From: an uncultured Poribacteria bacterium
Lineage (GTDB): Bacteria > Poribacteria > WGA-4E > WGA-3G
Direction of reading: 5' to 3'
Length of the DNA stretch: 64,000 nucleotides
Assembly (NCBI GenBank): GCA_951828385.1
Contig: OX639973.1
Span: forward strand, 2,843,200 to 2,907,199
The position numbers and the translations under genes are program-made. The stretch's first letter is position 1, and every line of letters starts with the position of its first letter. Positions 9,201 through 58,882 of this stretch are shown here, in pieces. Under the pieces are notes generated by a model. That model was not told the origin of the DNA. It saw nothing but the letters and a program-made list of their open reading frames with translations, and made no database searches.

Positions 9201-12200
9201 GGCTGTTAATGGGGGCGCATCACAGACAGTTGACAACACCCCACCCACCGTTGGGACAATCGCGTTTACCACCACAGGACCCTATAAAACCGGAGATTCG
9301 ATTACAATTTCCGTGCCGATAACGGATGCCTCGGCTGTCACGTTAGCCACGGGCACCGGGGGCGCACCAACGCTCGTTCTGACGGTAGGCACCACAGATA
9401 AGACGTTGACAGCAAGCACAAGTACAGGGACAATAACGGCATTAGCGTTTTCATACACCGTGGTAGCCGGCGATACAGATACCGATGGTGTGTCTGTAAA
9501 AGCCAATAGCTTGACTTTACCGAGTGGCACAACTGTCCGAGATGCCGTAGACCTCGACTTAGTGACGACCTTCACGGCTGTTAATGGCGGTGCATCGCAG
9601 GCGATTGATAACGCCGCACCCACCGTAGGAACGATCGCATTTACAAGCACCGGTCCGTATACTGCGGGCGATATGATCACACTCTCCATGCCGATAACTG
9701 ATGCCTCGGATGTCACATTAGTCACAGGCACCGGGGGCGCACCAGCGCTCACACTCGTTGTTGGGACAACGGAAAGAACTTTGACGACGACTACGACTGC
9801 CGGCACGATAACGGCATTAACGTTCTCCTACCTGGTCGTGGCGGCGGATACAGATACAGATGGTGTATCTGTCAAAGCCAATAGCCTCACACTTCCAACC
9901 GGCACAACTATCCAAGACACCACAAACATGGACTTGGTAACGACCTTCACGGCTGTTAATGGAGGCACCTCACATGCAGTTGACAACACCCCACCAACCG
10001 TCGGGACAATTGCGTTTACCACCACAGGACCGTATACTGCGGGGAATACGATTACAATTTCCGTGCCGATAACGGATGCTTCGGCTGTCACGTTAGCCGG
10101 CACTGGGGGTGCACCAACGCTCACACTCGTTGTCGGGACGACAGAAAGAACCTTGACATCCAGCACAACCGCCGGCACCATAACGGCATTAGCGTTCTCT
10201 TACACAGTCGTGGCCGGCGATACAGATACAGATGGTGTATCTGTGAAAGCCAATAGTTTGACTTTACCGAGTGGGACGACCGTCCGAGACGCTGTAGATC
10301 TCGACTTAGTGACGACCTTCACGGCTGTTAATGGCGGCGCATCACAAACTGTGGGCACCGCAGCCCCGACAGTCGGGGCGATTAGTTTTACGACCACGGG
10401 TCCCTATACTGCGGGGGATACGATTACAATTTCCGTGCCGATTGTTGGCGCGACACAGTTCAGCGGTTCACCAACGCTTGTGCTGACAGTCGGCACAACA
10501 GAGAAGACCTTGACAGCGACGAATGTCACCGCCTCTCCAATCGTGTTCTCTTACACGGTGGTAGCCGGTGATACAGATACCGATGGCGTGGTTGTCAAAG
10601 CCAATAGCCTCACCGTTGCCGCCAATACCATTGAAGATGCTGGCGGCAACGACTTGGTAGCAACTTTCACGGCTGTTAATGGAGGCACATCACAGACAGT
10701 TGACAACACCGCACCCACCGTTGGAACAATCGCATTTACAAGCACCGGTCCCTATACTACAGGGGATTCGATTACGATATCGGTTCCGATCACAGATGCC
10801 TCGGCCGTCACATTAGCCACGGGGGCTGGTGGGGCACCAACGCTCGTGCTGACAGTAGGGACGACGGAAAGAACTTTGACATCGAGCACAACCGCTGGCA
10901 CGATAACAGCGTTAGCGTTTTCATACCCGGTCGTGGCGGCGGATATGGATGCGGATGGTGTATCTGTCAAAGCCAATAGCTTGACTTTACCAAGCGGCAC
11001 GACTGTCCGAGATGCCGTAGACCTCAACTTAGTGACGACCTTCACGGCTGTTAACGGGGGCGCATCACAGGCGATTGACAACACCGGCCCAACCGTTGGG
11101 GCAATTAGTTTTACCACCACGGGACCGTATACTGCGGGCGATACGATCACGATCTCCGTCCCGATTGTTGGCGCGACACAGTTCAGCGGTTCACCAACGC
11201 TGAAGTTAGATGTCGGGGGAGTGGAGAAGACGTTAACAGCAACGAATATCACCGCCTCCCCGATCGTGTTCTCTTATACCGTAGCAGCCGGCGATACGGA
11301 TACCGACGGCGTGACAGTCGTTGCGAACAGCTTAACGGTTGCTGCGAACACCATTGAAGATGCCCTCGGCAACGACTTAGTAACGACTTTCACAGCAGTC
11401 GCTGGAGGCACATCGCAGACGGTGGACAACACCGCACCCACCGTTGGGACAATCGCATTTACGAGCACCGGTCCCTATACTACAGGGGATTCGATTACAA
11501 TATCGGTTCCGATAACGGATGCCTCGGATATCACATTGGCCACGGGTGCTGGTGGGGCACCAACGCTCGTGCTGACAGTCGGCACCACAGATAAGACATT
11601 GACATCAACCACAACCGCCGGCACGATAACAGCGTTAGCGTTCTCCTATACCGTGCAAGCCGGCGATGAGGATACCGATGGCGTGGCTGTCAAAGCCAAT
11701 AGTTTGACTTTACCGAGTGGCACGACTGTCCGAGATGCCGTAGACCTCAACTTGGTGACAACCTTCACCGCTGTTAATGGGGGCACATCACATGCAGTTG
11801 ACACCGCATCCCCGACAGTCGGGGCGATTAGTTTTACGACCACGGGACCGTATACTGCGGGAGATACGATTACAATTTCCGTCCCGATTGTTGGCGCGAC
11901 GCAGTTCAGCGGTTCACCGACACTTGTGCTGACGGTAGGCACAACAGAGAAGACATTGACAGCAACGAATATCACCGCCTCTCCAATCGTGTTCTCTTAC
12001 ACAGTGGTAGCCAGTGATACAGATACCGATGGCGTGGTTGTCAAAGCCGATAGCCTCACCGTTGCCGCCAATACCATTGAAGATGCTGCCGGAAACGACT
12101 TGGTGACGACCTTCACGGCTGTTAATGGAGGCACATCACAGACAGTTGACAACACCGCACCCACCGTAGGAACAATCGCATTTACAAGCACCGGTCCCTA

Positions 12201-15200
12201 TACTACAGGGGATTCGATTACGATATCGGTTCCGATAACGGATGCCTCGGCTATCACATTAGCCACGGGTGCTGCTGGGGCACCAACGCTCACACTCGTT
12301 GTCGGGACGACAGAAAAAACTTTGACATCCAGCACAACCGCTGGCACAATAACGGCATTAGCGTTCTCTTACACAGTCGTGGCCGGCGATACCGATACCG
12401 ATGGTGTATCTGTGAAAGCGAATAGCTTGACTTTACCGAGTGGCACAACCGTCCGAGATGCCGTAGACCTCGACTTAGTGACGAACTTCACGGCTGTTAA
12501 TGGCGGTGCATCGCAGGCGATTGACAACACCGCACCAACCGTTGGGACAATCGCATTTACCACCACAGGACCGTATACAGAGGGGGATACGATCACGATC
12601 TCCGTGCCGATTGTTGGCGCGACACAGTTCAGCGGTTCACCAACACTTGTCCTGACTGTCGGCACAACAGAGAAGACATTGACAGCAACAGATATCACAG
12701 CATCGCCTCTGGTTTTCACATATACCGTGGTGGCGGGGGATACAGATACCGATGGCGTGGTTGTTAAAGCCGATAGCCTCACTGTTGCCGCCAATACCAT
12801 TGAAGATGCCGCAGGAAACGACTTGGTGACAACCTTCACGGCTGTTAATGGAGGCACATCACAGACAGTTGACAACACCGCACCAATCGTTGGGACAATC
12901 GCATTTACGAGCACCGGTCCCTATACTGCAGGGAATACAATTGCAATTTCCGTGCCGATAACGGATGCTTCAGATATCACATTAGCCACGGGCACCGGAG
13001 GCGCACCAACCCTCACACTCGTTGTCGGAACAACAGAAAAAACCTTGACAACGACTACGACTGCCGGCACCATAACGGCATTAGCGTTTTCATACACGGT
13101 CGTGGCGGCGGATATGGATGCGGATGGCGTATCTGTCAAAGCCAATAGTTTGACTTTACCGAGTGGCACAACTGTCCGAGATGCCGTAGACCTCGACTTA
13201 GTGACGAGCTTTACGGCTGTTAACGGGGGCACATCACAGGCGATTGACAACACCGGCCCAACCGTAGGGGCAATTAGTTTTACGGGCACGGGACCGTATA
13301 CTGCGGGCGATACGATCACGATCTCCGTGCCGATTGTTGGCGCGACAGAGTTCAGCGGTTCGCCAACGCTGAAGTTAGATGTCGGTGGCGTGGAGAAGAC
13401 CTTGACAGCAATGAACATCACCGCCTCCCCGATCGTGTTCACTTATACCGTGGTAGCCGGCGATACCGATACCGACGGCGTGACAGTCGTTGCGAACAGC
13501 TTAACGGTTGCTGCGAACACCATTGAAGATGCCCTCGGCAACGACTTAGTAACGACTTTCACAGCAGTCGCTGGCGGCACATCGCAGACGGTGGACAACA
13601 CCGCACCAACGGTCGGAACGATCACATTTACGAGCACCGGTCCCTATACTACAGGGGATTCGATTACAATATCGGTTCCGATAACGGATGCCTCGGCTAT
13701 CACATTAGCCACGGGAGCCGGCGGGGCACCAACGCTCGTTCTGACAGTCGGCACAACGGAGAAGACATTGACATCGAGCACAACCGCCGGCACCATAACG
13801 GCGTTAGCGTTTTCCTATACCGTGCAAGCCGGCGATACGGATACCGATGGTGTATCTGTCAAAGCCAATAGCTTGACTTTACCGAGTGGCACAACTGTCC
13901 GGGATGCCGTAGACCTCGACTTGGTGACAACCTTCACGGCTGTTAATGGAGGCACATCGCATGCAGTTGACAACACCGCACCAACGGTCGGGACAATTGC
14001 GTTTACGAGCACCGGTCCCTATACTGCAGGGAATACGATTACAATTTCCGTCCCGATAACAGATGCTTCAGATATCACATTAGCCACGGGTGCTGGTGGG
14101 GCACCAACGCTTGTGCTGACAGTCGGCACAACGGAGAAGACATTGACATCCAGCACAAGCGCGGGCACGATAACGGCGTTAGCGTTTTCATACACAGTAG
14201 TGACAGGCGATACGGATACCGATGGTGTATCTGTGAAAGCCAACAGCTTGACTTTACCGAGTGACACAACCGTCCGAGATGCCGTAGACCTCGACTTGGT
14301 AACGACCTTCACAACTGTTAATGGGGGCACATCACAGGCGATTGACAACGCCGCACCCACCGTAGGAACAATCGCATTTACAAGCACCGGTCCCTATACT
14401 GCAGGAGATATGATTACGCTCTCCATGCCGATAACGGATGCTTCAGATATCACATTAGCCACGGGAGCCGGAGGCGCGCCAACGCTCACACTCGTTGTCG
14501 GAACAACGGAAAGAACCTTGACAACGACGACAACCGCCGGCACCATAACGGCATTAGCGTTTTCATACACCGTAGTAGCAGCGGATACGGATACCGATGG
14601 TGTATCTGTGAAAGCCAATAGCTTGACTTTACCGAGTGGCACGACTATCCGAGATGCCACAGACCAGGACCTGGTGACGACCTTCACCGCTGTTAATGGG
14701 GGCACATCACAGACGGTGGACAACACCGCACCAACCGTAGGAACAATCGCGTTTACCTCGACAGGACCGTATACTGTGGGGAATACGATTACAATTTCCG
14801 TCCCGATCACAGATGCCTCGGCTGTCACGCTAGCCGGCACTGGAGATGCGCCGACGCTCACACTCGTTGTAGGGACAACGGAAAGAACTTTGACATCCAG
14901 CACAAGTGCCGGCACGATAACGGCATTGGCGTTCTCATACACCGTGCAAGCAGGCGATGCCGATGCGGATGGCGTATCTGTAAAAGCCAACAGCCTCACA
15001 CTTCCAACCGGCACAACTATCCGGGATGCCGTAGACCTCAACTTGGTAACGACCTTCACGGCTGTTGATGGAGGCACATCACAAGTGGTGGACACCGCAG
15101 CCCCAGGGGTAGGGGCAATTCGTTTTACGACCACGGGGCCGTATACTGCGGGCGATACGATCACAATTTCCGTCCCGATTGTTGGCGCGACGCAGTTCAG

Positions 15201-18200
15201 CGGTTCTCCAACACTTGTGCTGACTGTCGGCACAACAGATAAGACATTGACAGCAACGAATATCACCGCCTCCCCGATCGTGTTCTCTTACACGGTGGTA
15301 GCCGGTGATACCGATACCGATGGCGTGGTTGTCAAAGCCAATAGCCTCACCGTTGCCGCCAATACGATTGAAGATGCTGGGGGTAACGACTTGGTGACAA
15401 CTTTCACCGCTGTTAATGGGGGCGCATCACAGACGGTGGACAACACCGCACCCACCGTAGGAACAATTGCGTTTACCACCACAGGTCCCTATAAAACCGG
15501 AGATACCATTACAATCTCCGTCCCGATAACGGATGCCTCGGATACCACATTAGCCACGGGGGCTAGTGGTTCCCCGACGCTCACACTTGTTGTCGGGACG
15601 ACAGAAAGAACCTTGACGACGACCACCGCTGCCGGCACAATAACAACTTTAGCGTTCTCATACACAGTCGTGGCAGCGGATACAGATACAGATGGCGTGG
15701 CTGTCAAAGCCAACAGCTTGACGTTACCGAGTGGCACGACTGTCCGAGATGCCGTAGACCTCGACTTGGGGACAACCTTCACCACCGTGGCTGGGGGCGC
15801 ATCACAGGCGGTGGACAACACTGCACCAACGGTAGGAACAATTGCGTTTACCACCACAGGCCCCTATAAAACCGGAGATACCATTACAATCTCCGTGCCG
15901 ATAACGGACACCTCGGCTGTTACATTAACCACGGGCACCGGGGGCGCGCCAACGCTTGTCCTGACAGTCGGCACAACAGATAAGACGTTGACATCGAGCA
16001 CAAGTGCTGGCACCATAACGGCGTTAGCGTTTTCATACACTGTGGTAGCCGGCGATACGGATACGGATGGCGTGGTTGTCAAAGCCAACAGCCTCACACT
16101 GCCGAGTGGCACAACTGTCCAAGATGCCGCGGATAACGATTTGGCGACGACTTTCACCGCTGCTAACGGTGGCACCTCACAGAGGGTAGACACCACCGCT
16201 CCAACCGTAGGAACAATTGCGTTTACGAGTACCGGTCCCTATACTACAGGGGATTCGATTACAATATCGGTTCCGATAACGGATGCCTCGGCTGTCACAT
16301 TAGCCGGCGGAGCACCAACGCTCACACTCGTTGTCGGAACGAGAGAAAAAACCTTGACGACAACTACAACCGCCGGCACAATAACGGCATTAGCGTTCTC
16401 TTACACAGTCGTGGCCGGCGATACCGATACCGATGGTGTATCTGTAAAAGCGAATAGCTTGACTTTACCGAGTGGCACAACCGTCCGAGATGCCGTAGAC
16501 CTCGACTTAGTGACGACCTTCACGGCTGTTAATGGCGGCGCATCACAAACTGTGGGCACCGCAGCCCCGACAGTCGGGGCGATTAGTTTTACGACCACGG
16601 GTCCCTATACTGCGGGCGATACGATTACAATTTCCGTCCCGATTGTTGGCGCGACGCAGTTCAGCGGTTCACCAACGCTGAAGTTAGATGTCGGTGGCGT
16701 GGAGAAGACGTTAACAGCAACAAATATCACCGCTTCTCCAATCGTGTTCTCTTACACAGTGGTAGCCAGTGATACAGATACCGATGGCGTGGTTGTCAAA
16801 GCCAATAGCCTCACCGTTGCCGCCAATACGATTGAAGATGCTGGGGGTAACGATTTGGTGACAACTTTCACCGCTGTTAATGGGGGTGCATCACAGACGG
16901 TGGACAACACCGCACCAACCGTAGGAACGATCGCATTTACGAGCACGGGGCCGTATACCGTGGGAAATACGATTACGCTCTCCGTCCCGATCACAGATGC
17001 CTCGGCTATCACGTTAGCCACGGGGGCTGGTGGGGCACCAACGCTCGTGCTGACTGTCGGCAACACAGATAAGACATTGACATCCAGCACAAGTGCAGGG
17101 ACAATAACGGCATTAGCGTTTTCATACACGGTGGTAGCCGGTGATACAGATACCGATGGCGTGGTTGTCAAAGAGAATAGCCTGACGTTACCGAGTGGCA
17201 CGACTATCCGGGATGCCGTAGACCTCGACTTGGTAACGACTTTCACGGCTGTTAATGGAGGCACTTCACAAGTGGTGGACACCGCAGCCCCAGGGGTAGG
17301 GGCAATTAGTTTTACGACCACGGGACCGTATACTGCGGGCGATACGATTACAATTTCCGTCCCGATTGTTGGCGCGACGCAGTTCAGCGGTTCACCGACA
17401 CTTGTGCTGACTGTCGGCACAACAGAGAAGACATTGACAGCAACGAATATCACCGCTTCTCCAATCGTGTTCTCTTACACAGTGGTAGCCAGTGATACAG
17501 ATACCGATGGCGTGGTTGTCAAAGCCAATAGCCTCACCGTTGCCGCCAATACCATTGAAGATGCTGGTGGCAACGATTTGGTGACAACTTTCACGGCTGT
17601 TAATGGGGGCGCATCACAGACGGTGGACACCACCGCACCAACCGTAGGGACAATTGCGTTTACGAGCACCGGTCCCTATACTGCGGGAGATACCATTACA
17701 ATTTCCGTCCCGATAACGGATGCCTCGGATGTCACGTTAACCACGGGTGCTGCTGGGGCACCAACGCTCGTGCTGACGGTCGGCACCACGGATAAGACAC
17801 TGACCTCCAGCACAAGCGCGGGGACAATAACGGCGTTAGCGTTCTCTTACACAGTCCTGGCAGGCGATATGGATGCGGATGGCGTATCTGTCAAAGCCAA
17901 TAGCTTGACTTTACCGAGTGGCACAACCGTCCGAGATGCTGTAGATCTCGACTTAGTGACGACCTTTACGGCTGTTAACGGGGGCGCATCACAGGCGGTG
18001 AACACCACCCCACCAGCAGTAGACACCACCGCTCCAACCGTAGGGACAATCGCGTTTACCAGCACGGGTCCGTATACTGCAGGAGATACGATTACAATTT
18101 CCGTGCCGATAACGGACACCTCAACTGTCACATTAACCACAGGCACCGGCGGGGCACCAACGCTTGTGCTGACAGTCGGCAACACGGATAAGACACTGAC

Positions 18201-21200
18201 ATCCAGCACAACCGCGGGGACAATAACGGCGTTAACGTTCTCATACACAGTCGTGGCAGGCGATACCGATACAGATGGTGTATCTGTCAAAGCCAACAGC
18301 CTCACACTGCCGAGTGGCACAACTGTCCAAGATGCCGCGGATAACGATTTGGCGACGACTTTCACCGCTGTTAATGGCGGCACTTCACATGCAGTTGACA
18401 ACACCCCACCAACCGTAGGGACAATCGCGTTTACGAGTACCGGTCCGTATACTGCGGGAGATACGATTACAATTTCCGTGCCAATAACGGATGCTTCAGA
18501 TATCACATTAGCCACAGGCACCGGCGGGGCACCAACGCTCACCCTCGTTGTCGGGACAACAGAAAAAACTTTGACAACGAGCACAAGCGCGGGGACAATA
18601 ACGGCGTTAGCGTTCTCTTACACAGTCCTGGCAGGCGATATGGATGCGGATGGCGTATCTGTCAAAGCCAATAGCTTGACTTTACCGAGTGGCACGACTG
18701 TCCGAGATGCTGTAGATCTCGACTTAGTGACGACCTTTACGGCTGTTAACGGGGGCGCATCACAGGCGGTGAACACCACCCCACCAGCAGTAGACACCAC
18801 CGCTCCAACCGTAGGGACAATCGCGTTTACCAGCACAGGACCCTATAAAGCCGGGGATACAATTACAATTTCCGTGCCGATTGTTGGCGCGACACAGTTC
18901 AGCGGTTCACCAACGCTTGTGCTGATAGTCGGCACAACAGAGAAGACATTGACAGCAACGGATGTCACAGCATCGCCCCTGGTTTTCACGTATACCGTGG
19001 TGGCGGGGGATACAGATACCGATGGCGTGGTTGTCAAAGCCGATAGCCTCACCGTTGCCGCCAATACCATTGAAGATGCTGCCGGAAACGACTTGGTGAC
19101 AACTTTCACCGCTGTTAATGGAGGCACATCGCAGGCGGTGGACACCACCGCACCCACCGTAGGGACAATCGCGTTTGCGAGCACAGGTCCCTATACTGCG
19201 GCGGATACGATTACAATTTCCGTGCCGATAACGGATGCCTCGGCTATCACATTAGCCACGGGCACCGGCGGGGCACCAACGCTTGTGCTGACTGTCGGCA
19301 CAACGGAGAAGACATTGACGACGACGACCGCTGCCGGCACGATAACGACCTTAGCGTTCTCCTATACCGTGCAAACCGGCGATGAGGATACAGATGGCGT
19401 GGCTGTCAAAGCCAATAGCTTAACGTTACCCAGTGGCACGACTATCCGAGATGCTGCCGGAAATGACCTCGTGACAACGTTCGCCACTGTCCCAGGCGGC
19501 CCAGTGAATGCTGTGAAGACCACGGCACCGATGGTAGGAGATATTACCTTTACGAGCACGGGGCCGTATAAAGCGACACCCCCCAATAATACGATCACAC
19601 TCTCCGTGCCGATAACGGATGCCTCGGCTGTTGCATTAGCCATAGGCACCGGGGGCGCGCCAACGCTCGTGCTCATCGTAGGCACAACGGAAAGAACGTT
19701 GACCACCACTACGACTGCTGGTACGATAACCGCATTAGCGTTCTCCTATACCGTGGCAGCCGGCGATACAGATACAGATGGCGTGGCTGTCAAAGCCAAC
19801 AGCCTCACACTTCCAACCGGCACGACTATCCAAGATACTATCGGAAATGACCTCGTGACAACGTTCGCCACTGTCCCAGGCGGCACGACGCAGACCGTGG
19901 ACACCACCCCCCCGAGAACGAGCGGAATTGGGTTTACCTCAACCGGTCCCTACACACTAAACTCGTCGATTGACATCACGGTGACATTCAACGAACCCGT
20001 TAAGGTCGTCGATGATGGCGATACCACACAGGTACCAACGGTGACGCTGAAGGTCGCCGATGCCAACCGGGAGGCAGCATACCACAGCAATACCACGAAT
20101 GGCCTCATCTTCCGGTATGTGATAGCAACTACGGATGCCAATGATGCCGATGGCCTGGAAGTCAAGGCAGGAAGTATTGCCCTCAACGGTGATAGCATCC
20201 AAGATACTGCCGGCAACCCCGCCACACACCTGCAGTATTCGTCCATCCCACCAGATACCGCCCATCGCGTGGATCTGAACCTGCCCATTGTGAACGAGGT
20301 CGCTATCACTTCACACGGCTACTATAAAGCCGGGGACACGATTGTCATTGAAGTCACGCTAAACAAACCGACGACTATCACAGGCACACAACGCATAGGG
20401 CTCCTGCTTGGACAGAATGATGCCACGCCCCCTGAAGTGGCAGTGAACGCCGCGAATACATCGGACACGCTCACGACGGACCCACTGGTGTTTCGCTACA
20501 CGGTGCAAGCCGGCGATACCGACTCCGATGGTGTACAGGTCAAAGCTAACAGTCTCCAACTCCTGACAGGGACGATTGTCGACGAATTCAGCAATCCACT
20601 GGCACCCGGCTTTACAGATTTTACTATTCCCCCCAACTCGAATCAAATCGTGGATACCACGGCACCAACACCAGTGATTACCGCACAAGATGGCGACACA
20701 CTCGTAGGGGCGGATGGTGTGACGGTGACGATCGACTTCGGGGAACCGGTGACTGACTTCGCGCAAGACGACATCGCTGCCACTAATGGTGCAACCCTTC
20801 GGAACTTTCGGACCCTCTCAGCCGCGCACTATACGATAGAGGTTCTGCCGAGTGGGAGTGGGGCGATAACTGTCAGCGTAGCCGCAGGGGCAGCAACGGA
20901 CCTGGCAGGGAACAGCAGCAACGCTGCCACCCCACTTACCATCACCCCAAATTTTGTTGACGTGCCAAAGGGGGCAGATCCCCCATCCGTGGTGGATAAT
21001 TTAAAACCGCCCCTATGTCCCGTGCCAAGCGGGGCAAATCCGCCATCCGTGGCGGATAATTTAGAACCGCCCCTGTGTGAGGTAGACCCAGACGCTGAAT
21101 CGGTTACTTCATCGCAGATCGTCTTCAACGAACTTCTAAACGCGGACGACGACAAAAATGATTGGATAGAGCTCAAAAACGTCAGCGACGAAACTATCGC

Positions 21201-23421
21201 GCTCGCCGAATGGGAAATTAGCATTATTGAGCCGGAGGGCGAAAATGCTGATAAGGATGTGGATCTAGTCGTATTTCCTGAATACACGCTGCCAGCCGGT
21301 GGTATCCTGCTAATTGTCAACACCGATCCGAGTGAGACACGGCTCGCAGGTGGTATAAATATCGAAACAGGCGAGGCAAAGAAAGGCGCACGCCACCTTT
21401 ATCTCGTCGCAGCAGATTTCAAATTGCCAGAGACCCCTTATCTCCTCATCCTGCGACGAGCCCGAGATAAAAATGGACACCCGGAGGCGATTGAGGATGT
21501 CACCGGCACTTATTCCCACTTATTTCCGAAACTCCTACCACTATCGGACGCAGGTGTGGCCCTCCAAGACACGCAGCAACCGCGGCCCCCTGCCTTGCTT
21601 ACACAAGGGATCGTGTGGCGACGGACCGCGATCGGCAAACCCGGTTATCTTGCCGAAGCATGGTGCATAAGTGAATATCAGGCAGGGCTCGGATATGACA
21701 GAAAGGCAGATGAAGCATACAGTTTCGGAACACCCGGATACGCCAACGATGCCATTGTACATCAAACACCCGCAGAAGCCTTACAACAACTCGCCGAGAC
21801 ACCAACCTTTAGCGAGATTATGTTTACCACCAAAGGCAGAATCCATTCTTTGCCACAGTGGATAGAAGTCTATAATCCCTCTCACACCGAAACGGTGGAT
21901 TTAGAGGGATGGCAGCTTGAAGTAGAAGCACGCCATGCAGGAACGCATCGCCATGACATGATAACCTTTCAGCCCTTGGCCATCTTGCCAAATCAAACTG
22001 TGCTTTTAGTGACCGCGTTAGGGCAAACGCCAGCGGATTTACTTACGGACGATCAGGTCTACAACCTCTACGACTCCCATCGAAAAGCTTTCGGGCAACA
22101 CCAGCGGCGGAATAGCGTCTTAAGTGATGAAGGATTCAGCCTGAAATTAACAGACCCGGCTGGCACCGTCATAGACCAGGTAGGCAATTTAGACGGCATG
22201 TCCGACACCGATGACGAACCCACCTGGACGCTGCCTCGCGGAGAAACCGACACACGCACACGGACCTCTATCCTCCGCCGCTATCAAGCCGGTGAAGCCC
22301 TTGATGGCACAGCCCAAACCAGTTGGCACCGCGCCGCAGAAGTACCCCTAACAGCACACACCTATTACGGATGGCGGACAGACATCGGAACCCCAGGCGT
22401 AACGGACCACTTAGAGCAGATTCCAACGCGACAGCTCAGCTTCAGTGAGCTCATGTTTACAACGAAAGGTGGACTCCATTCCTTACCGCAGTGGATAGAA
22501 ATCTATAATCCATCCTACACCGAAGCGGTGAATTTAGAGGGATGGCATCTTGAAGTGGAGGCGCGCCACGCCGGTGAACATCGCTATGGCGAGATCAACT
22601 TTGAGCCGTTGGACATCTTACCAAACCGGACGGTACTTTTGGTGACCGGGCAAGGGCGAAACTCCAAACATTTCCCGGAAAATATGATCTACAACCTCTG
22701 CACGTATCACAGGACTTTTTTGAACCAAAACAGACATCCGAACAGTGTGTTGAGCGCAGACGGGTTCTACCTGAAACTGTCGGACCGGACAGGCATGGTC
22801 GTTGATGTCATCGGCAATTTGGATGGCGATAGCCGAACGAAAGATGATCCCACATGGACATGGCCCTCCGGGAAAACAGAAGACGGTGCCCGCAGCGCTC
22901 TGGTCCGGTGCTATGAAAATCGCGTGCCCTTGGACGGAACCCAGGCAGCAAATTGGCAGCGCGCAGCGGAAGTAAAATTAAAGGTCAGTACCTATTGGGG
23001 ATACAAGACAGACATCGGCACGCCCGGATATAAAAGCGGCGGCCCCCTGCCCGTTACCTTGTCGCATTTCCGGGCAGAACGCACTGAAGCAGGGAGCGTT
23101 GCGATCAAGTGGGTCACCGAATCGGCTTTGGACAACGCCGGCTTCTATCTCCTGCGAAGCCAAACAAAGCAAGGACCGTTCCGAATCGTCAACCCAACCC
23201 TGATCCACGGAGCGGGGACCACAAGCGAACGCCGCACCTATACCTGGACAGATAAGACAACGAAACCGAATGCCGTCTACTATTACCGGTTAGAGGAGGT
23301 GTCTCACGCCGGAGATAAGCAGACGTTAGCGACAGTCCGCTTGCGCGGGCATGTCTCGCCAGCAGGTAAGGTGGCAACGCAGTGGGGCACCTTGAAAACG
23401 GACATGCAGAATCCTTTCTAA
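6214..23421 (+). CDS. Giant secreted repeat protein: Ig-like repeats plus lamin-tail domains
   Basis: This 5735-aa protein starts with a signal peptide (MLLAGCLIAASVLLMFP then AETAALS). Residues about 30-280 hold diverged Ig-like domains. From about residue 280 there are 35 closely related units of about 117-125 aa built on FTSTGPYTAGDTITISVPI, YTVVAGDTDTDGV and VKANSL, then two diverged units and one more Ig-like domain. Each unit carries an acidic D-x-D-x-D-G loop that could bind calcium (inference). Three lamin-tail-type domains follow at about 4965, 5198 and 5408, the last two being near duplicates (PQWIEVYNPSHTETVDLEGW and PQWIEIYNPSYTEAVNLEGW). A fibronectin-like domain starts near 5612, and the end reads WGTLKTDMQNPF. 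The likely role is a surface fibre or adhesin. The start lacks a strong ribosome binding site. No sortase or T9SS-type tail is visible. Confidence 0.9.
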   Translation: MKTNHIKSMLLAGCLIAASVLLMFPAETAALSVDSVSFGSPPANQNNTYKKGDTISIEVVFSEAVTVTGAPSLDFFIYHTDAGGPGGPSFIPNRVATYSTGSGTNTLTFTYTVGNDEATGMRLRRNDALKLNGGRIHAGDDDIRGLGDGHVIDNTPVDGRLPQPQAPKWLLTATNLGASGAQRTIFTVEFDFGEPVSGFDEADILLENTAAQVEVGSLAVVDATNPRKYTAKIRALAMGIVHISVPANRVTDLAGNGNASSTAMTDAEREKFNAMFVRTPTVGTITFDTRGPYTLGDTITVSVPILHATQFSGSPTLKLDVGGVEKTLTAPNVTGTPLVFSYTVVAGDEDTDGVDVKANSLTVAANTIKDELDNPLVATFATVNGGSDQMVNAAGPTVGTISFTSTGPYKAGDAITVSVPIVGATEFSGSPTLKLDVGGVEKTLTATDVMASPLVFSYTVAEGDTDTDGVSVKANSLNVAANTIEDAAGNDLITIFTAVDGGASHVVDTTAPTVGTIAFTSTGPYTVGNTITISVPITDTSAVTLATGTGGSPTLVLTVGTTDKTLISSTSAGTITALAFSYTVAAGDADADGVVVKANSLTLPSGTTVRDAAGNDLATTFTAVSGGTTQTVDTGAPTVGTIAFTSTGPYTEGDTITLSVPITDTSAVTLAGTGGAPTLTLVVGTTEKTLTSSTSAGTITALAFSYTVQAGDTDTDGVSVKANSLTLPSGTTIRDALSNDLVTTFTAVNGGTSHAVDNTAPTVGTIAFTTTGPYKTGDTITISVPITDASAVTLATGTGGAPTLTLVVDTTEKTLTSSTSAGTITALAFSYTVVAGDTDTDGVSVKANSLTLPSGTTVRDAVDLDLVTTFTAVNGGASQAIDNAPPTVGTITFTSTGPYTTEDSITISVPITDTSAVTLATGTGGAPTLTLVVGTTERTLTTTTAAGTITALAFSYTVVAADTDTDGVVVKANSLTLPSGTTIRDTTNMDLVTTFTAVNGGASQTVDNTPPTVGTIAFTTTGPYKTGDSITISVPITDASAVTLATGTGGAPTLVLTVGTTDKTLTASTSTGTITALAFSYTVVAGDTDTDGVSVKANSLTLPSGTTVRDAVDLDLVTTFTAVNGGASQAIDNAAPTVGTIAFTSTGPYTAGDMITLSMPITDASDVTLVTGTGGAPALTLVVGTTERTLTTTTTAGTITALTFSYLVVAADTDTDGVSVKANSLTLPTGTTIQDTTNMDLVTTFTAVNGGTSHAVDNTPPTVGTIAFTTTGPYTAGNTITISVPITDASAVTLAGTGGAPTLTLVVGTTERTLTSSTTAGTITALAFSYTVVAGDTDTDGVSVKANSLTLPSGTTVRDAVDLDLVTTFTAVNGGASQTVGTAAPTVGAISFTTTGPYTAGDTITISVPIVGATQFSGSPTLVLTVGTTEKTLTATNVTASPIVFSYTVVAGDTDTDGVVVKANSLTVAANTIEDAGGNDLVATFTAVNGGTSQTVDNTAPTVGTIAFTSTGPYTTGDSITISVPITDASAVTLATGAGGAPTLVLTVGTTERTLTSSTTAGTITALAFSYPVVAADMDADGVSVKANSLTLPSGTTVRDAVDLNLVTTFTAVNGGASQAIDNTGPTVGAISFTTTGPYTAGDTITISVPIVGATQFSGSPTLKLDVGGVEKTLTATNITASPIVFSYTVAAGDTDTDGVTVVANSLTVAANTIEDALGNDLVTTFTAVAGGTSQTVDNTAPTVGTIAFTSTGPYTTGDSITISVPITDASDITLATGAGGAPTLVLTVGTTDKTLTSTTTAGTITALAFSYTVQAGDEDTDGVAVKANSLTLPSGTTVRDAVDLNLVTTFTAVNGGTSHAVDTASPTVGAISFTTTGPYTAGDTITISVPIVGATQFSGSPTLVLTVGTTEKTLTATNITASPIVFSYTVVASDTDTDGVVVKADSLTVAANTIEDAAGNDLVTTFTAVNGGTSQTVDNTAPTVGTIAFTSTGPYTTGDSITISVPITDASAITLATGAAGAPTLTLVVGTTEKTLTSSTTAGTITALAFSYTVVAGDTDTDGVSVKANSLTLPSGTTVRDAVDLDLVTNFTAVNGGASQAIDNTAPTVGTIAFTTTGPYTEGDTITISVPIVGATQFSGSPTLVLTVGTTEKTLTATDITASPLVFTYTVVAGDTDTDGVVVKADSLTVAANTIEDAAGNDLVTTFTAVNGGTSQTVDNTAPIVGTIAFTSTGPYTAGNTIAISVPITDASDITLATGTGGAPTLTLVVGTTEKTLTTTTTAGTITALAFSYTVVAADMDADGVSVKANSLTLPSGTTVRDAVDLDLVTSFTAVNGGTSQAIDNTGPTVGAISFTGTGPYTAGDTITISVPIVGATEFSGSPTLKLDVGGVEKTLTAMNITASPIVFTYTVVAGDTDTDGVTVVANSLTVAANTIEDALGNDLVTTFTAVAGGTSQTVDNTAPTVGTITFTSTGPYTTGDSITISVPITDASAITLATGAGGAPTLVLTVGTTEKTLTSSTTAGTITALAFSYTVQAGDTDTDGVSVKANSLTLPSGTTVRDAVDLDLVTTFTAVNGGTSHAVDNTAPTVGTIAFTSTGPYTAGNTITISVPITDASDITLATGAGGAPTLVLTVGTTEKTLTSSTSAGTITALAFSYTVVTGDTDTDGVSVKANSLTLPSDTTVRDAVDLDLVTTFTTVNGGTSQAIDNAAPTVGTIAFTSTGPYTAGDMITLSMPITDASDITLATGAGGAPTLTLVVGTTERTLTTTTTAGTITALAFSYTVVAADTDTDGVSVKANSLTLPSGTTIRDATDQDLVTTFTAVNGGTSQTVDNTAPTVGTIAFTSTGPYTVGNTITISVPITDASAVTLAGTGDAPTLTLVVGTTERTLTSSTSAGTITALAFSYTVQAGDADADGVSVKANSLTLPTGTTIRDAVDLNLVTTFTAVDGGTSQVVDTAAPGVGAIRFTTTGPYTAGDTITISVPIVGATQFSGSPTLVLTVGTTDKTLTATNITASPIVFSYTVVAGDTDTDGVVVKANSLTVAANTIEDAGGNDLVTTFTAVNGGASQTVDNTAPTVGTIAFTTTGPYKTGDTITISVPITDASDTTLATGASGSPTLTLVVGTTERTLTTTTAAGTITTLAFSYTVVAADTDTDGVAVKANSLTLPSGTTVRDAVDLDLGTTFTTVAGGASQAVDNTAPTVGTIAFTTTGPYKTGDTITISVPITDTSAVTLTTGTGGAPTLVLTVGTTDKTLTSSTSAGTITALAFSYTVVAGDTDTDGVVVKANSLTLPSGTTVQDAADNDLATTFTAANGGTSQRVDTTAPTVGTIAFTSTGPYTTGDSITISVPITDASAVTLAGGAPTLTLVVGTREKTLTTTTTAGTITALAFSYTVVAGDTDTDGVSVKANSLTLPSGTTVRDAVDLDLVTTFTAVNGGASQTVGTAAPTVGAISFTTTGPYTAGDTITISVPIVGATQFSGSPTLKLDVGGVEKTLTATNITASPIVFSYTVVASDTDTDGVVVKANSLTVAANTIEDAGGNDLVTTFTAVNGGASQTVDNTAPTVGTIAFTSTGPYTVGNTITLSVPITDASAITLATGAGGAPTLVLTVGNTDKTLTSSTSAGTITALAFSYTVVAGDTDTDGVVVKENSLTLPSGTTIRDAVDLDLVTTFTAVNGGTSQVVDTAAPGVGAISFTTTGPYTAGDTITISVPIVGATQFSGSPTLVLTVGTTEKTLTATNITASPIVFSYTVVASDTDTDGVVVKANSLTVAANTIEDAGGNDLVTTFTAVNGGASQTVDTTAPTVGTIAFTSTGPYTAGDTITISVPITDASDVTLTTGAAGAPTLVLTVGTTDKTLTSSTSAGTITALAFSYTVLAGDMDADGVSVKANSLTLPSGTTVRDAVDLDLVTTFTAVNGGASQAVNTTPPAVDTTAPTVGTIAFTSTGPYTAGDTITISVPITDTSTVTLTTGTGGAPTLVLTVGNTDKTLTSSTTAGTITALTFSYTVVAGDTDTDGVSVKANSLTLPSGTTVQDAADNDLATTFTAVNGGTSHAVDNTPPTVGTIAFTSTGPYTAGDTITISVPITDASDITLATGTGGAPTLTLVVGTTEKTLTTSTSAGTITALAFSYTVLAGDMDADGVSVKANSLTLPSGTTVRDAVDLDLVTTFTAVNGGASQAVNTTPPAVDTTAPTVGTIAFTSTGPYKAGDTITISVPIVGATQFSGSPTLVLIVGTTEKTLTATDVTASPLVFTYTVVAGDTDTDGVVVKADSLTVAANTIEDAAGNDLVTTFTAVNGGTSQAVDTTAPTVGTIAFASTGPYTAADTITISVPITDASAITLATGTGGAPTLVLTVGTTEKTLTTTTAAGTITTLAFSYTVQTGDEDTDGVAVKANSLTLPSGTTIRDAAGNDLVTTFATVPGGPVNAVKTTAPMVGDITFTSTGPYKATPPNNTITLSVPITDASAVALAIGTGGAPTLVLIVGTTERTLTTTTTAGTITALAFSYTVAAGDTDTDGVAVKANSLTLPTGTTIQDTIGNDLVTTFATVPGGTTQTVDTTPPRTSGIGFTSTGPYTLNSSIDITVTFNEPVKVVDDGDTTQVPTVTLKVADANREAAYHSNTTNGLIFRYVIATTDANDADGLEVKAGSIALNGDSIQDTAGNPATHLQYSSIPPDTAHRVDLNLPIVNEVAITSHGYYKAGDTIVIEVTLNKPTTITGTQRIGLLLGQNDATPPEVAVNAANTSDTLTTDPLVFRYTVQAGDTDSDGVQVKANSLQLLTGTIVDEFSNPLAPGFTDFTIPPNSNQIVDTTAPTPVITAQDGDTLVGADGVTVTIDFGEPVTDFAQDDIAATNGATLRNFRTLSAAHYTIEVLPSGSGAITVSVAAGAATDLAGNSSNAATPLTITPNFVDVPKGADPPSVVDNLKPPLCPVPSGANPPSVADNLEPPLCEVDPDAESVTSSQIVFNELLNADDDKNDWIELKNVSDETIALAEWEISIIEPEGENADKDVDLVVFPEYTLPAGGILLIVNTDPSETRLAGGINIETGEAKKGARHLYLVAADFKLPETPYLLILRRARDKNGHPEAIEDVTGTYSHLFPKLLPLSDAGVALQDTQQPRPPALLTQGIVWRRTAIGKPGYLAEAWCISEYQAGLGYDRKADEAYSFGTPGYANDAIVHQTPAEALQQLAETPTFSEIMFTTKGRIHSLPQWIEVYNPSHTETVDLEGWQLEVEARHAGTHRHDMITFQPLAILPNQTVLLVTALGQTPADLLTDDQVYNLYDSHRKAFGQHQRRNSVLSDEGFSLKLTDPAGTVIDQVGNLDGMSDTDDEPTWTLPRGETDTRTRTSILRRYQAGEALDGTAQTSWHRAAEVPLTAHTYYGWRTDIGTPGVTDHLEQIPTRQLSFSELMFTTKGGLHSLPQWIEIYNPSYTEAVNLEGWHLEVEARHAGEHRYGEINFEPLDILPNRTVLLVTGQGRNSKHFPENMIYNLCTYHRTFLNQNRHPNSVLSADGFYLKLSDRTGMVVDVIGNLDGDSRTKDDPTWTWPSGKTEDGARSALVRCYENRVPLDGTQAANWQRAAEVKLKVSTYWGYKTDIGTPGYKSGGPLPVTLSHFRAERTEAGSVAIKWVTESALDNAGFYLLRSQTKQGPFRIVNPTLIHGAGTTSERRTYTWTDKTTKPNAVYYYRLEEVSHAGDKQTLATVRLRGHVSPAGKVATQWGTLKTDMQNPF
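7051..19908 (+). repeat. 35 tandem coding repeats of about 350-375 bp
   Basis: I located 35 GPYT/GPYK landmarks between 7085 and 19560. Two unit types occur: a short one (about 348 bp, VGATQFSGSPTL, 11 copies) and a long one (about 375 bp, ITDASAVTLATG, 24 copies). Units 10 to 19 alternate short-long strictly, giving a higher-order period of about 723 bp (landmarks 10396, 11120, 11842, 12565, 13288). A separate duplication of about 771 bp near 18001 and 18772 carries the phrase VNTTPPAVDTTAPTVG. Identity at DNA level is high, so gene conversion or slippage looks recent. Two further diverged units have landmarks near 19945 and 20319. Confidence 0.92.
20962..21081 (+). repeat. Two in-frame tandem copies of a 60-bp sequence
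   Basis: GTGCCAAAGGGGGCAGATCC at 20962 recurs with few changes at 21022, exactly 60 bp later. The encoded linkers read PPSVVDNLKPPLC and PPSVADNLEPPLC. They separate the Ig-like part from the lamin-tail part and bring rare Cys residues into the protein. The ATCCG-TGG-CGGAT inverted repeat suggests an intergenic-type palindrome that entered the reading frame. Confidence 0.75.
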
Positions 23422-55085: not shown

Positions 55086-57179
55086 ATGAAAATGCTGACG
55101 GTATCTCCAGGGAAAATACTTTTACTTCTATTTTTGGGACTCTTTTCTGTTACGATTCAGTTTATTGCTGTTCCCGAAGTGTCCACCCAACGCGGTATTA
55201 AAATCAGCGTTCACACGGAAGATGGCACAGAACTTGATCTCTATAACGATTCCTACGCCCTCGTTATTGGAAATGGGGATTACCCCGCCAAAAACGGGTG
55301 GAAGCTCTTGCCTGGGGCAGTCAACGATGCCAAAGAAGTGGCGGAGGTCCTCAACCACCAAGGGTTCGATGTGACCTTGAAAATAGATCTGACGAAAGCA
55401 GAATTCAACAAGGCGTTTACGGATTTCATCTACACATCTGGTAAAGACACAGATAACCGACTCCTCTTTTACTATGCCGGACACGGATACACAACGAAAT
55501 CGGCAATCGGTGAGGACCTCGGTTATCTGGTGATGTTAGATACACCGAATCCAGAGAACGCGGGTGAGTTTGATCTCTATAGCATTGATATGGTCAAATT
55601 CGTTGCAGATTCAAAGAAGATTCATGCCAGACATGTGTTGTTTATGTTTGACAGCCATTTCTCAGGGACGATCCTCAATCTGCAGAATCAGGTTACACCC
55701 TTACATATCACAGAACGGATTAGAAATCCTGTGCGCCAATTCATCACCTCTGGTCGTGCAGATGAACCCGTTTCAGATAGGAGTGCGTTTAAGGAAGGGT
55801 TTCTGGATCTGCTTGAAGGACGTGTTGAGGAACCGATGCCAGACGGTTATCTAACTGGCGTTGAGTTAGCAGATTATCTGTACAGGACAGTACCAAAGCT
55901 TTCTGCAGGACAACACCCACAACACGGGAAAATCCACGATCAACAACTGAACACTGGGGATTTTGTGTTTGTGCTCCCTCAAGACAGACATCAGGAGAGG
56001 AATGCCGTTGAATTGGAGACCCTAGCGACGTTGCGGATAACGAGTGTTCCCGATGGAGCGACAGTCTACATTGATGGTGTTGCTGTTGGCACGACCCCAC
56101 TCCAGAATTATCAGATTGATACAGGTATCCGTCTTGAAAAATCGGTGAATGTCGGACTGGCACTTTCAGGTTATAAAAGTCGTGTTCAAAAAGTAAGCCT
56201 ACAGGGTGGGCAACAGTTTGCCTGGGACGCGCATTTGGAGCAGATAGTAGAACAATCAGCCCCTCTAAAATCAGAACCCGATCCCCTGCAACCTGAAATT
56301 AGAGATGATGTTCAGATTGAAAGTGACATCATTCCAAATGAGAAAGTGCAATCACTTTCGCCAAATGTGTCTCATACCATTCTCGGTGCAGACACTGCCC
56401 CGATGGTACTGATTCCCGCTGGCGACTTTCAGATGGGAAGTGATTACAATACTATAGGGAATGCCGCCACCAGACCGATGCATCCGGTCTATATTGATGC
56501 GTTCTATATTGATAAATACGAAGTCACCGTTGGGCAATACAATCAATTTGTTCGTGCCACTAATTATCACCCGTTACCGAGTTGGATATATCAGTATGCT
56601 CCGACGGATGCCCATCCTGTTGTAGGGGTCAGTTGGCACGATGCTAAGGCGTATGCGAAATGGGCCGGCAAGCGGCTCCCAACAGAAGCGGAATGGGAGA
56701 AAGCAGCAAGGGGCGGTTTGATACAAAAAAATCACTCGTGGGGGGACGCTGCAGTGGATGGCACACAATGTAACTTCGCAGATAAACGCCTGAGAACAAT
56801 CTGGAACAAGGAAAGAGAACCCGACGATAATTGGGCAGATGAAAATCTTGATGATGGCTATGCATACACAGCACCTGTCGGCAGCTATCCACCCAACGGA
56901 TACGGCCTACATGACATGGTAGGTAATGTGTGGGAATGGTGTTTTGATGCTTATGATGAAAATTTCTATGCGAATTCTCCCTACCAGAATCCGATTGCTG
57001 AGATCCTTATAAAAGATGGAGCAAATAATATAGTTGCTGTTAATAAATTGCGCGTAGTCCGTGGAACTTCCTGGCACGATGGAGTCTCGAGTGTATGGAT
57101 CGCGAGCCGCGTTGGCCAATCTCCAGAAGGTGAAGTCACCAACATTGGCTTCCGTTGTGTGAAGTCCGTAACGCCTTAA
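55086..57179 (+). CDS. Caspase-like (C14) domain, PEGA and SUMF1 fusion, catalytic Cys lost
   Basis: The 697-aa protein has a signal-like N-terminus and then a caspase/metacaspase p20-like domain at about 55-300 (SYALVIGNGDY, LPGAVNDAKEVAEVL, LLFYYAGHGY with His133). Where active members read D-S/A-C-x-S-G it reads FDSHFSG: His191 (CAT codon) replaces the catalytic Cys. A PEGA-type domain follows at about 318-390 (LRITSVPDGATVYIDGVAVG). A SUMF1/C-type-lectin-fold domain occupies about 440-697 (LIPAGDFQMGS, RLPTEAEWEKAARGG, MVGNVWEWCFDAYD). Protease activity is unlikely. The start lies 7 bp after the cohesin gene, completing the operon. Confidence 0.9.
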   Translation: MKMLTVSPGKILLLLFLGLFSVTIQFIAVPEVSTQRGIKISVHTEDGTELDLYNDSYALVIGNGDYPAKNGWKLLPGAVNDAKEVAEVLNHQGFDVTLKIDLTKAEFNKAFTDFIYTSGKDTDNRLLFYYAGHGYTTKSAIGEDLGYLVMLDTPNPENAGEFDLYSIDMVKFVADSKKIHARHVLFMFDSHFSGTILNLQNQVTPLHITERIRNPVRQFITSGRADEPVSDRSAFKEGFLDLLEGRVEEPMPDGYLTGVELADYLYRTVPKLSAGQHPQHGKIHDQQLNTGDFVFVLPQDRHQERNAVELETLATLRITSVPDGATVYIDGVAVGTTPLQNYQIDTGIRLEKSVNVGLALSGYKSRVQKVSLQGGQQFAWDAHLEQIVEQSAPLKSEPDPLQPEIRDDVQIESDIIPNEKVQSLSPNVSHTILGADTAPMVLIPAGDFQMGSDYNTIGNAATRPMHPVYIDAFYIDKYEVTVGQYNQFVRATNYHPLPSWIYQYAPTDAHPVVGVSWHDAKAYAKWAGKRLPTEAEWEKAARGGLIQKNHSWGDAAVDGTQCNFADKRLRTIWNKEREPDDNWADENLDDGYAYTAPVGSYPPNGYGLHDMVGNVWEWCFDAYDENFYANSPYQNPIAEILIKDGANNIVAVNKLRVVRGTSWHDGVSSVWIASRVGQSPEGEVTNIGFRCVKSVTP

Positions 57180-57685: not shown

Positions 57686-57900
57686 TACCCACTACCTAAA
57701 GGTAGGGGCTTGTGCTTCCTCGCGACTGCGGTTTTCTCAGAGAGTCCACCGTCTGACTGTCGCTCCACTTTAGGCGGCCAAGCCCGCCCGTTTGATATTG
57801 ATAGCAGCGTTGATGTCTCGGTCGTGGTGTGAACCACATCTTGGACATGTCCACTGTCTATCTGAAAGAGAGAGGTCTTGATTAGGGTATCCACAATCAC
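57686..57900 (-). ncRNA. Candidate omegaRNA region at the 3' end of tnpB
   Basis: In characterised TnpB systems the guide RNA scaffold spans the 3' end of tnpB and the right end, and the guide follows the last hairpin. Here the equivalent region runs from the last codons of tnpB to the CTACC-TTTA-GGTAG hairpin near 57690 (minus strand). Its 5' limit is not visible. The guide would start around 57685 and read toward lower coordinates. Confidence 0.4.
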
Positions 57901-58882
57901 TGCAAGGTTTTGTTGTTGCTGTCCATTGACTGATTTTCACAAGTTTTTTACCATGTTTGGCACACTTCTGTTCCAATATCTGCAGAAATTGGTAGAAGGC
58001 ATGGTCAGAAATTTTGCGTCCCCAAAGCCGTTTCATGCCGTCAAGGTTCAGTGTTTCAAAACAGAGTATATCAAACTCCGTGCAAAGTTTGGTGGCAAGT
58101 TTCCACTGCCAATCCTCTCTTTGTCGGGCGACTTTTCTGTGGTGCCTCGCCAAAGCACGACACGCACGATAATAGTTGTTAGAACCTTTGACTTTACGAC
58201 TCAGTGCTTTACTCAGGGATCGCAACGTTTTCAGGGATTGCTTGAAAAACTGCGGAGATTCTATCTCAGTGCCTTCGTCGCTTGTCAGGAATGTTTTATT
58301 TCCGTAATCAAACCCTGCGCTCTTACCCGTCTTGAGTTTCGGTTCCGAATCGTCAACATTCTCGCACGAAAAGCATAGCCAATAGTCACCGCACTTATCA
58401 CGTTTGAGTGTGATTGTCTTGATTAGACCTTTGATTTCACGGTGTTTGTGAAAGGAAAACCATGTATCTATACAGTTGATTTTGATACGATTATCTTCAA
58501 GTTTGTAACCCGCTTGTGTGAAGGTCATAGAGTTATACTTATGACGCGGTTTGATTTTCGGTCTACCCACTTTACGGGTCGTCAAACCTGCTTTGCGGTC
58601 TTCTATATTTTCAAAGAAAGCGTCCTGTGATTTACCGTAACGTAATACAACGTCTTGCACAACTTGACTCGGCAAGTCCGCCCAATGCGGTTTTGTCCGC
58701 TTTTTGAGTTTCGCAATATGTGCTTTTATTCGATATGCGGACAGGTTTTTTCCGAATATACGGTAATACCTACGAGCCAATAACAGGATATGCACGTGTA
58801 TCTGCCACATATCGTCAAGCATGTTGCCTATTTTGACTGTGTTTGATTGATTTTGAATCTTGAACTTGTATGACTTTCTCAC
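57770..58882 (-). CDS. tnpB: TnpB, RNA-guided nuclease of the IS200/IS605 family
   Basis: This 370-aa protein is a full-length TnpB. The RuvC residues are all present: Asp in SAGFDYGNKTF, Glu in DILCFETLNLDGM, and the last Asp in HHDRDINAAINI. A four-Cys zinc ribbon sits between the last two (CSDCGYPN and CPRCGSHH). The N-terminal helix-turn-helix region is present as well (MLDDMWQIHVHILLLARRYY). TnpB cuts DNA guided by an RNA made from its own element's right end. There is no sign of a frameshift or lost catalytic residue, so it may be active. Confidence 0.95.
   Translation of the reverse strand: MRKSYKFKIQNQSNTVKIGNMLDDMWQIHVHILLLARRYYRIFGKNLSAYRIKAHIAKLKKRTKPHWADLPSQVVQDVVLRYGKSQDAFFENIEDRKAGLTTRKVGRPKIKPRHKYNSMTFTQAGYKLEDNRIKINCIDTWFSFHKHREIKGLIKTITLKRDKCGDYWLCFSCENVDDSEPKLKTGKSAGFDYGNKTFLTSDEGTEIESPQFFKQSLKTLRSLSKALSRKVKGSNNYYRACRALARHHRKVARQREDWQWKLATKLCTEFDILCFETLNLDGMKRLWGRKISDHAFYQFLQILEQKCAKHGKKLVKISQWTATTKPCSDCGYPNQDLSLSDRQWTCPRCGSHHDRDINAAINIKRAGLAA

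Follow-up and report, generated by a model that had tools for sequence, protein, structure and literature searches.

What does a bacterial caspase-like domain do when the position of its nucleophile is held by a histidine? The question is raised by an ORF at positions 55086 to 57179 (+ strand) of the window, the 64,000-nucleotide stretch of DNA analyzed here, which belongs to the genome (6.66 Mb, a single contig) of an uncultured Poribacteria bacterium.

Domain layout and catalytic site

The ORF encodes a protein of 697 amino acids with an N-terminal hydrophobic helix, a C14 caspase-like domain, a PEGA domain, and an FGE/SUMF1-like domain. The helix (residues 8 to 33; 55107 to 55184, + strand) was predicted from the sequence and the AF2 model of the whole protein, which was weak (pLDDT 57.7, pTM 0.37) and served for this helix only. 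It lacks a lipobox Cys and may be a signal peptide or membrane anchor, in which case the protein would be exported. The caspase-like domain was modeled as residues 39 to 297 (55200 to 55976, + strand), with a Peptidase_C14 (PF00656) match at residues 57 to 192 (63.9 bits versus a Pfam cut-off of 21.4). The Pfam matches to PEGA (residues 314 to 386; 56025 to 56243, + strand) and FGE-sulfatase (residues 438 to 693; domain at 56397 to 57176, + strand) follow. Elsewhere in the window, positions 6214 to 23421 (+ strand) form one ORF of 5,735 amino acids.

A sequence-only reading of this locus had claimed that the D-x-C-x-S-G motif of active C14 peptidases is replaced by DSHFSG. Direct reading of positions 55650 to 55667 (+ strand) gave GAC AGC CAT TTC TCA GGG, or D S H F S G at residues 189 to 194, with the S1-type acid Asp189 kept, and alignment with 35 relatives placed residue 191 in the catalytic Cys column; both results bear out the claim. 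His191 (CAT; 55656 to 55658, + strand) occupies the position of the nucleophilic Cys of C14 peptidases. The dyad histidine of YYAGHGY, described in that reading as retained, is intact as His133 (CAC; 55482 to 55484, + strand). The protein, with His133 present and Cys replaced by His191, does not have the His-Cys dyad of active orthocaspases and has the p20 domain with a substituted dyad that defines pseudo-orthocaspases. A scan of the protein found zero cysteines in the caspase domain, the sole cysteines (562, 619, and 691) all lying within the FGE-like domain. Thus, no Cys inside the caspase domain can replace the lost nucleophile, and takeover by a Cys elsewhere, which the earlier reading had named as evidence that would count against it, is excluded for this domain.

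The caspase fold is kept and the FGE-like domain lacks copper cysteines

The AF2 model of the caspase domain was of high confidence (pLDDT 89.9, pTM 0.90). Its best structural match was MALT1 (4i1r; Z 22.6, rmsd 2.3, 195 residues aligned, 23% identity), followed by caspase-9 (Z 20.4) and metacaspase-4 (Z 20.1), so that Pfam score and predicted fold both place the protein in the C14/caspase-fold superfamily. In the MALT1 alignment, Asp81 (55326 to 55328, + strand) is the kept equivalent of an S1-pocket aspartate, which, counting back from the GHG His, we take to be Asp365. By analogy with MALT1 and the metacaspase literature, Asp189 and Glu227 would also play an S1 role. All six members of the clade described below retain Asp81, His133, Asp189, and Glu227; the acidic pocket expected of a pseudo-orthocaspase is therefore present in 6/6 as Asp81 and Asp189, with its pocket role assigned by analogy with MALT1 and metacaspase. 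Acidic pockets are reported to be conserved in cyanobacterial pseudo-orthocaspases too (PMC6426788).

The C-terminal domain matched formylglycine-generating enzymes in the PDB (E 4e-39). True FGE (SUMF1) has two copper-binding, catalytic cysteines (GGSYxC...C). The copper-cysteine stretch SYLCHDSYCN of FGE 6muj aligned to SWHDGVSS in the 697-amino-acid protein, which lacks both. The match to the NCBIfam GldK model TIGR03525 (145.9 bits) was below the cut-off of 350, which does not place the protein in PorK/GldK. With the caspase Cys lost and the FGE copper cysteines missing, neither recognizable domain looks catalytic, judging from sequence. In Cys-bearing paralogs (L116:7016-15908, L117, L119, and L125), the FGE-like domain has a highly variable C-terminal loop (GGSWTPHPQNV, GGSWYYSQGTV, and others), a variety that could reflect different ligands. 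Targeting of the FGE-like domain by a diversity-generating retroelement was considered and dropped as unsupported; the genome yielded a single reverse transcriptase gene, 2.4 Mb away.

Cys replacement is shared within a Poribacteria clade

Relatives of the gene were present in 22 of 84 Poribacteria genomes. In a site-masked tree, the window gene clustered with single genes of G082, G066, G052, G053, and G049 (support 99/98), and nucleotide trees recovered the same six-gene clade (support 98 to 100), which spans six Poribacteria species. The sister group consists of genes with DSCFSG and with Cys at the site in every member; it includes three paralogs of the window's genome, clustered about 480 kb away and 77 to 79% identical over the domain. 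Within the clade, the site reads His CAT in the window gene, Arg CGT in G082 and G053, Arg CGC in G052, Arg CGG in G066, and Cys TGT in G049, where it lies within a damaged motif, DNCFSST (S190N and G194S). Alignment with relatives, proposed in the earlier reading as a check, thus revealed that Cys loss is common to four sister genomes. Relatives with Cys, which together with poor read support had been put forward as a possible refutation, do exist as paralogs, but the clade members mostly have Arg.

The codons suggest an order of changes. CAT is indeed two steps from TGT, as previously counted, but a single transition separates TGT from CGT and a further one separates CGT from CAT, so that the two-change distance is explicable by an Arg intermediate; the His of the window gene probably came through Arg rather than directly from Cys. 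The three distinct third bases among the four Arg codons suggest that Arg at this position is old. All five genes without Cys spell the Asp before the site GAC, and G049 shares GAT with the sister clade, a hint that the Cys of G049 is the ancestral one. The AU test did not separate ancestral from reverted Cys in G049, and the trees gave no firm branching order within the clade. Because one clade member, G049, has Cys, whether kept or regained, loss of the nucleophile may not be single.

In a tree of rpoB plus rpoC, the window's genome was placed with G062 and G071, outside a five-species group holding the other clade members, indicating that transfer or differential loss occurred. The AU test rejected a gene tree strictly matching this species tree (p about 1e-34), and the gene therefore has its own history of transfer, recombination, or duplication and loss. 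The rpoB of the window's genus (G000:C1:5318888-5324086) encodes about 1,770 amino acids, with an insertion of roughly 330 near model position 925 to 935 that is absent in G041 and G045 (rpoB of 1,355 to 1,369 amino acids); a second, divergent rpoC-like ORF of 1,076 amino acids lies on the same contig (G000:C1:6380816-6383803).

Several clade loci are alike in having SelA downstream, TonB-C, Big_5, or LRR genes upstream, or both. The SelA gene is downstream in G082, G066, and G049, and an FGE gene adjoins it in G066 and G049. In G080, a similar locus is occupied by a Cys-bearing copy from outside the clade. In the window, an IS200/IS605-type TnpB (RNA-guided endonuclease family; 57770 to 58882, - strand) lies directly downstream of the caspase gene, before selA.

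C14 domains across the phylum

Poribacteria were sampled, non-exhaustively, for C14 domains. Of 136 distinct ones, 121 had Cys at the catalytic position and 119 had an intact dyad, close to the 84% published for bacteria in a 2012 survey, in which Ser was the most frequent Cys replacement (PMC3501461). Arg (4 domains) and His (1 domain) at this position were confined to the clade of the window gene among the 136 domains, and Asp189 was found in all 135 that have a letter at that column. The four Arg-bearing genomes had no further C14 protein at E <= 0.01.

Other departures from the Cys were seen. Three further C14-like genes of the window's genome (G000:C1:1113000-1126000 and 1474000-1490000; L136 and L135) are without the catalytic Cys; their motifs are DTFSF, DSESH, DTVSF, DSGSQ, and DSGSF, two of the three are double-domained, and His is changed to Asp or Asn in three of the four domains of these two. 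A separate family lineage in G018 and G020 (L134:4842-6521 and L120:2002-3666) carries Ser in place of the Cys (DSSFSD) and is an independent nucleophile loss. Assignment of the window gene to a defense system was rejected, the sole match being a generic PADLOC caspase model at 48 bits.

Selection on the two domains

Selection was estimated with a codon model (MG94, F3x4, kappa; own script) over 259 caspase codons and 241 FGE codons. For the caspase domain, omega was 0.073 in the Cys clade versus 0.181 in the clade of the window gene, estimates that include weakly supported branches among tandem copies, where the model has no gene conversion. The two-omega model raised lnL from -7205.4 to -7178.5 (2 delta lnL 53.7, one parameter). 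Caspase-domain constraint in the clade is thus 2.5-fold relaxed, yet strong, with no additional shift in omega on the window branch. For the FGE-like domain, omega was 0.198 in the Cys clade versus 0.142 in the clade of the window gene (2 delta lnL 8.2), showing no relaxation. The caspase domain shifted its selective regime while the whole gene stayed constrained. No frameshift, stop, or internal deletion was found in the clade genes of the six genomes.

A probable pseudo-orthocaspase working without cysteine proteolysis

Together, these results make it probable that the protein is a pseudo-orthocaspase, likely exported or membrane anchored, whose C14 nucleophile was lost within a Poribacteria clade and which works without cysteine proteolysis. 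Loss would have proceeded from Cys TGT to Arg CGT and then, in the window's genome, to His CAT. The caspase fold may then serve as a structural or ligand-binding module, whose acidic pocket might still bind a basic peptide and leave it uncut; the conserved FGE/PorK-like domain would be the main functional part, and the whole protein could act as a cell-envelope scaffold or receptor. The sequence-only reading had proposed a binding or scaffold module joined to SUMF1. Shared Cys loss, the kept fold and pocket, and purifying selection on both domains support that proposal, with a binding role for the caspase-like domain as its putative part, and two points are added to it: the SUMF1/FGE-like part also lacks its copper cysteines, and the His probably arose via Arg.

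It is rather unlikely that the caspase domain is instead decaying, its activity gone and the domain carried as a passenger kept for folding or spacing beside a functional FGE-like domain. The relaxed but nonzero constraint could represent slow decay: omega rose 2.5-fold in the caspase domain and not in the FGE-like domain, substitutions are scattered at otherwise invariant positions, and S190N and G194S surround the Cys of G049. However, an omega of 0.18 is far under 1, the genes of all six genomes are undisrupted, nothing of the acidic pocket or the dyad His has been lost, and the caspase-domain model is of high confidence.

A more specific arrangement, which we regard as doubtful, is that Arg or His at the catalytic position sits beside or inside the protein's own acidic S1 pocket and holds the fold in a state resembling the substrate-bound one, or that the intact pocket reads basic peptides uncut. 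Were this true of a self-occluded or receptor caspase, four species would have kept their only caspase homolog solely for nonproteolytic work.

Inactive mammalian caspase homologs can be negative regulators (PMC3501461), and a c-FLIP-like protein that dimerizes with or competes against active paralogs might be imagined in the window's genome, given its three active-looking paralogs of 77 to 79% identity. This is very unlikely: the paralogs lie about 480 kb off, and the Arg-bearing genomes yielded no second C14 protein at the threshold above, so that inhibition of an active caspase cannot be general in the clade, which argues against it as the ancestral role.

A rebuilt active site is still harder to credit, whether with Ser190 or Ser193 as nucleophile or with His133 and His191 as a metal site. 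Both serines flank the position and are kept, but the Cys clade has them just the same, so they are not new; the two histidines occupy the former dyad positions, but in the sister proteins the residue is Arg, which does not point to metal binding. A sequencing or assembly error at 55656 to 55658 in an otherwise active gene can be practically dismissed, for although His is seen in the window's genome alone, four independent sister-species assemblies have Arg (three codons) and not Cys at this column, CAT is one step from CGT, and two base errors precisely at the site are improbable.

Comparison with known systems

The probable pseudo-orthocaspase resembles several described proteins. MALT1 paracaspase (PDB 4i1r and 3uo8) is the closest solved fold and shares the GHGY motif and the S1 Asp365 equivalent, but it is an active eukaryotic protease with a catalytic Cys. 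The C-terminal domain matches both PorK/GldK and formylglycine-generating enzyme (PF03781), which form one superfamily, whereas the protein falls under the GldK cut-off and lacks the FGE copper cysteines. A Trichodesmium erythraeum metacaspase homolog (113475804; PMC3501461) is likewise a fusion of caspase-like and FGE-sulfatase domains with its dyad scored negative; it comes from another phylum, and the likeness is one of domain fusion and dyad score alone.

Bacterial pseudo-orthocaspases, as presented in the part of the account used here (PMC6426788), share the p20 caspase fold, substituted dyad, acidic specificity pocket, and optional C-terminal domains. Their dyads are mainly YS, YA, FS, YN, YG, HA, HG, and QC, in Cyanobacteria and Alphaproteobacteria, whereas in the Poribacteria protein Cys is changed to Arg or His and the dyad His is kept. 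The group is common in bacteria, though no established function for it was found in those parts of the published accounts. Pseudo-orthocaspases, including C14-FGE ones, are therefore already described, and what the Poribacteria clade adds is an unusually clear evolutionary setting. It is a clean natural comparison: relatives with Arg, His, and Cys are matched, active-looking paralogs accompany the gene in the window's genome, constraint is relaxed in one domain and not in the other, and four genomes yielded no C14 protein besides the inactive form. In those four, this argues against the usual explanation that an inactive caspase inhibits active siblings, and the clade makes a nonproteolytic role for the bacterial caspase fold testable.
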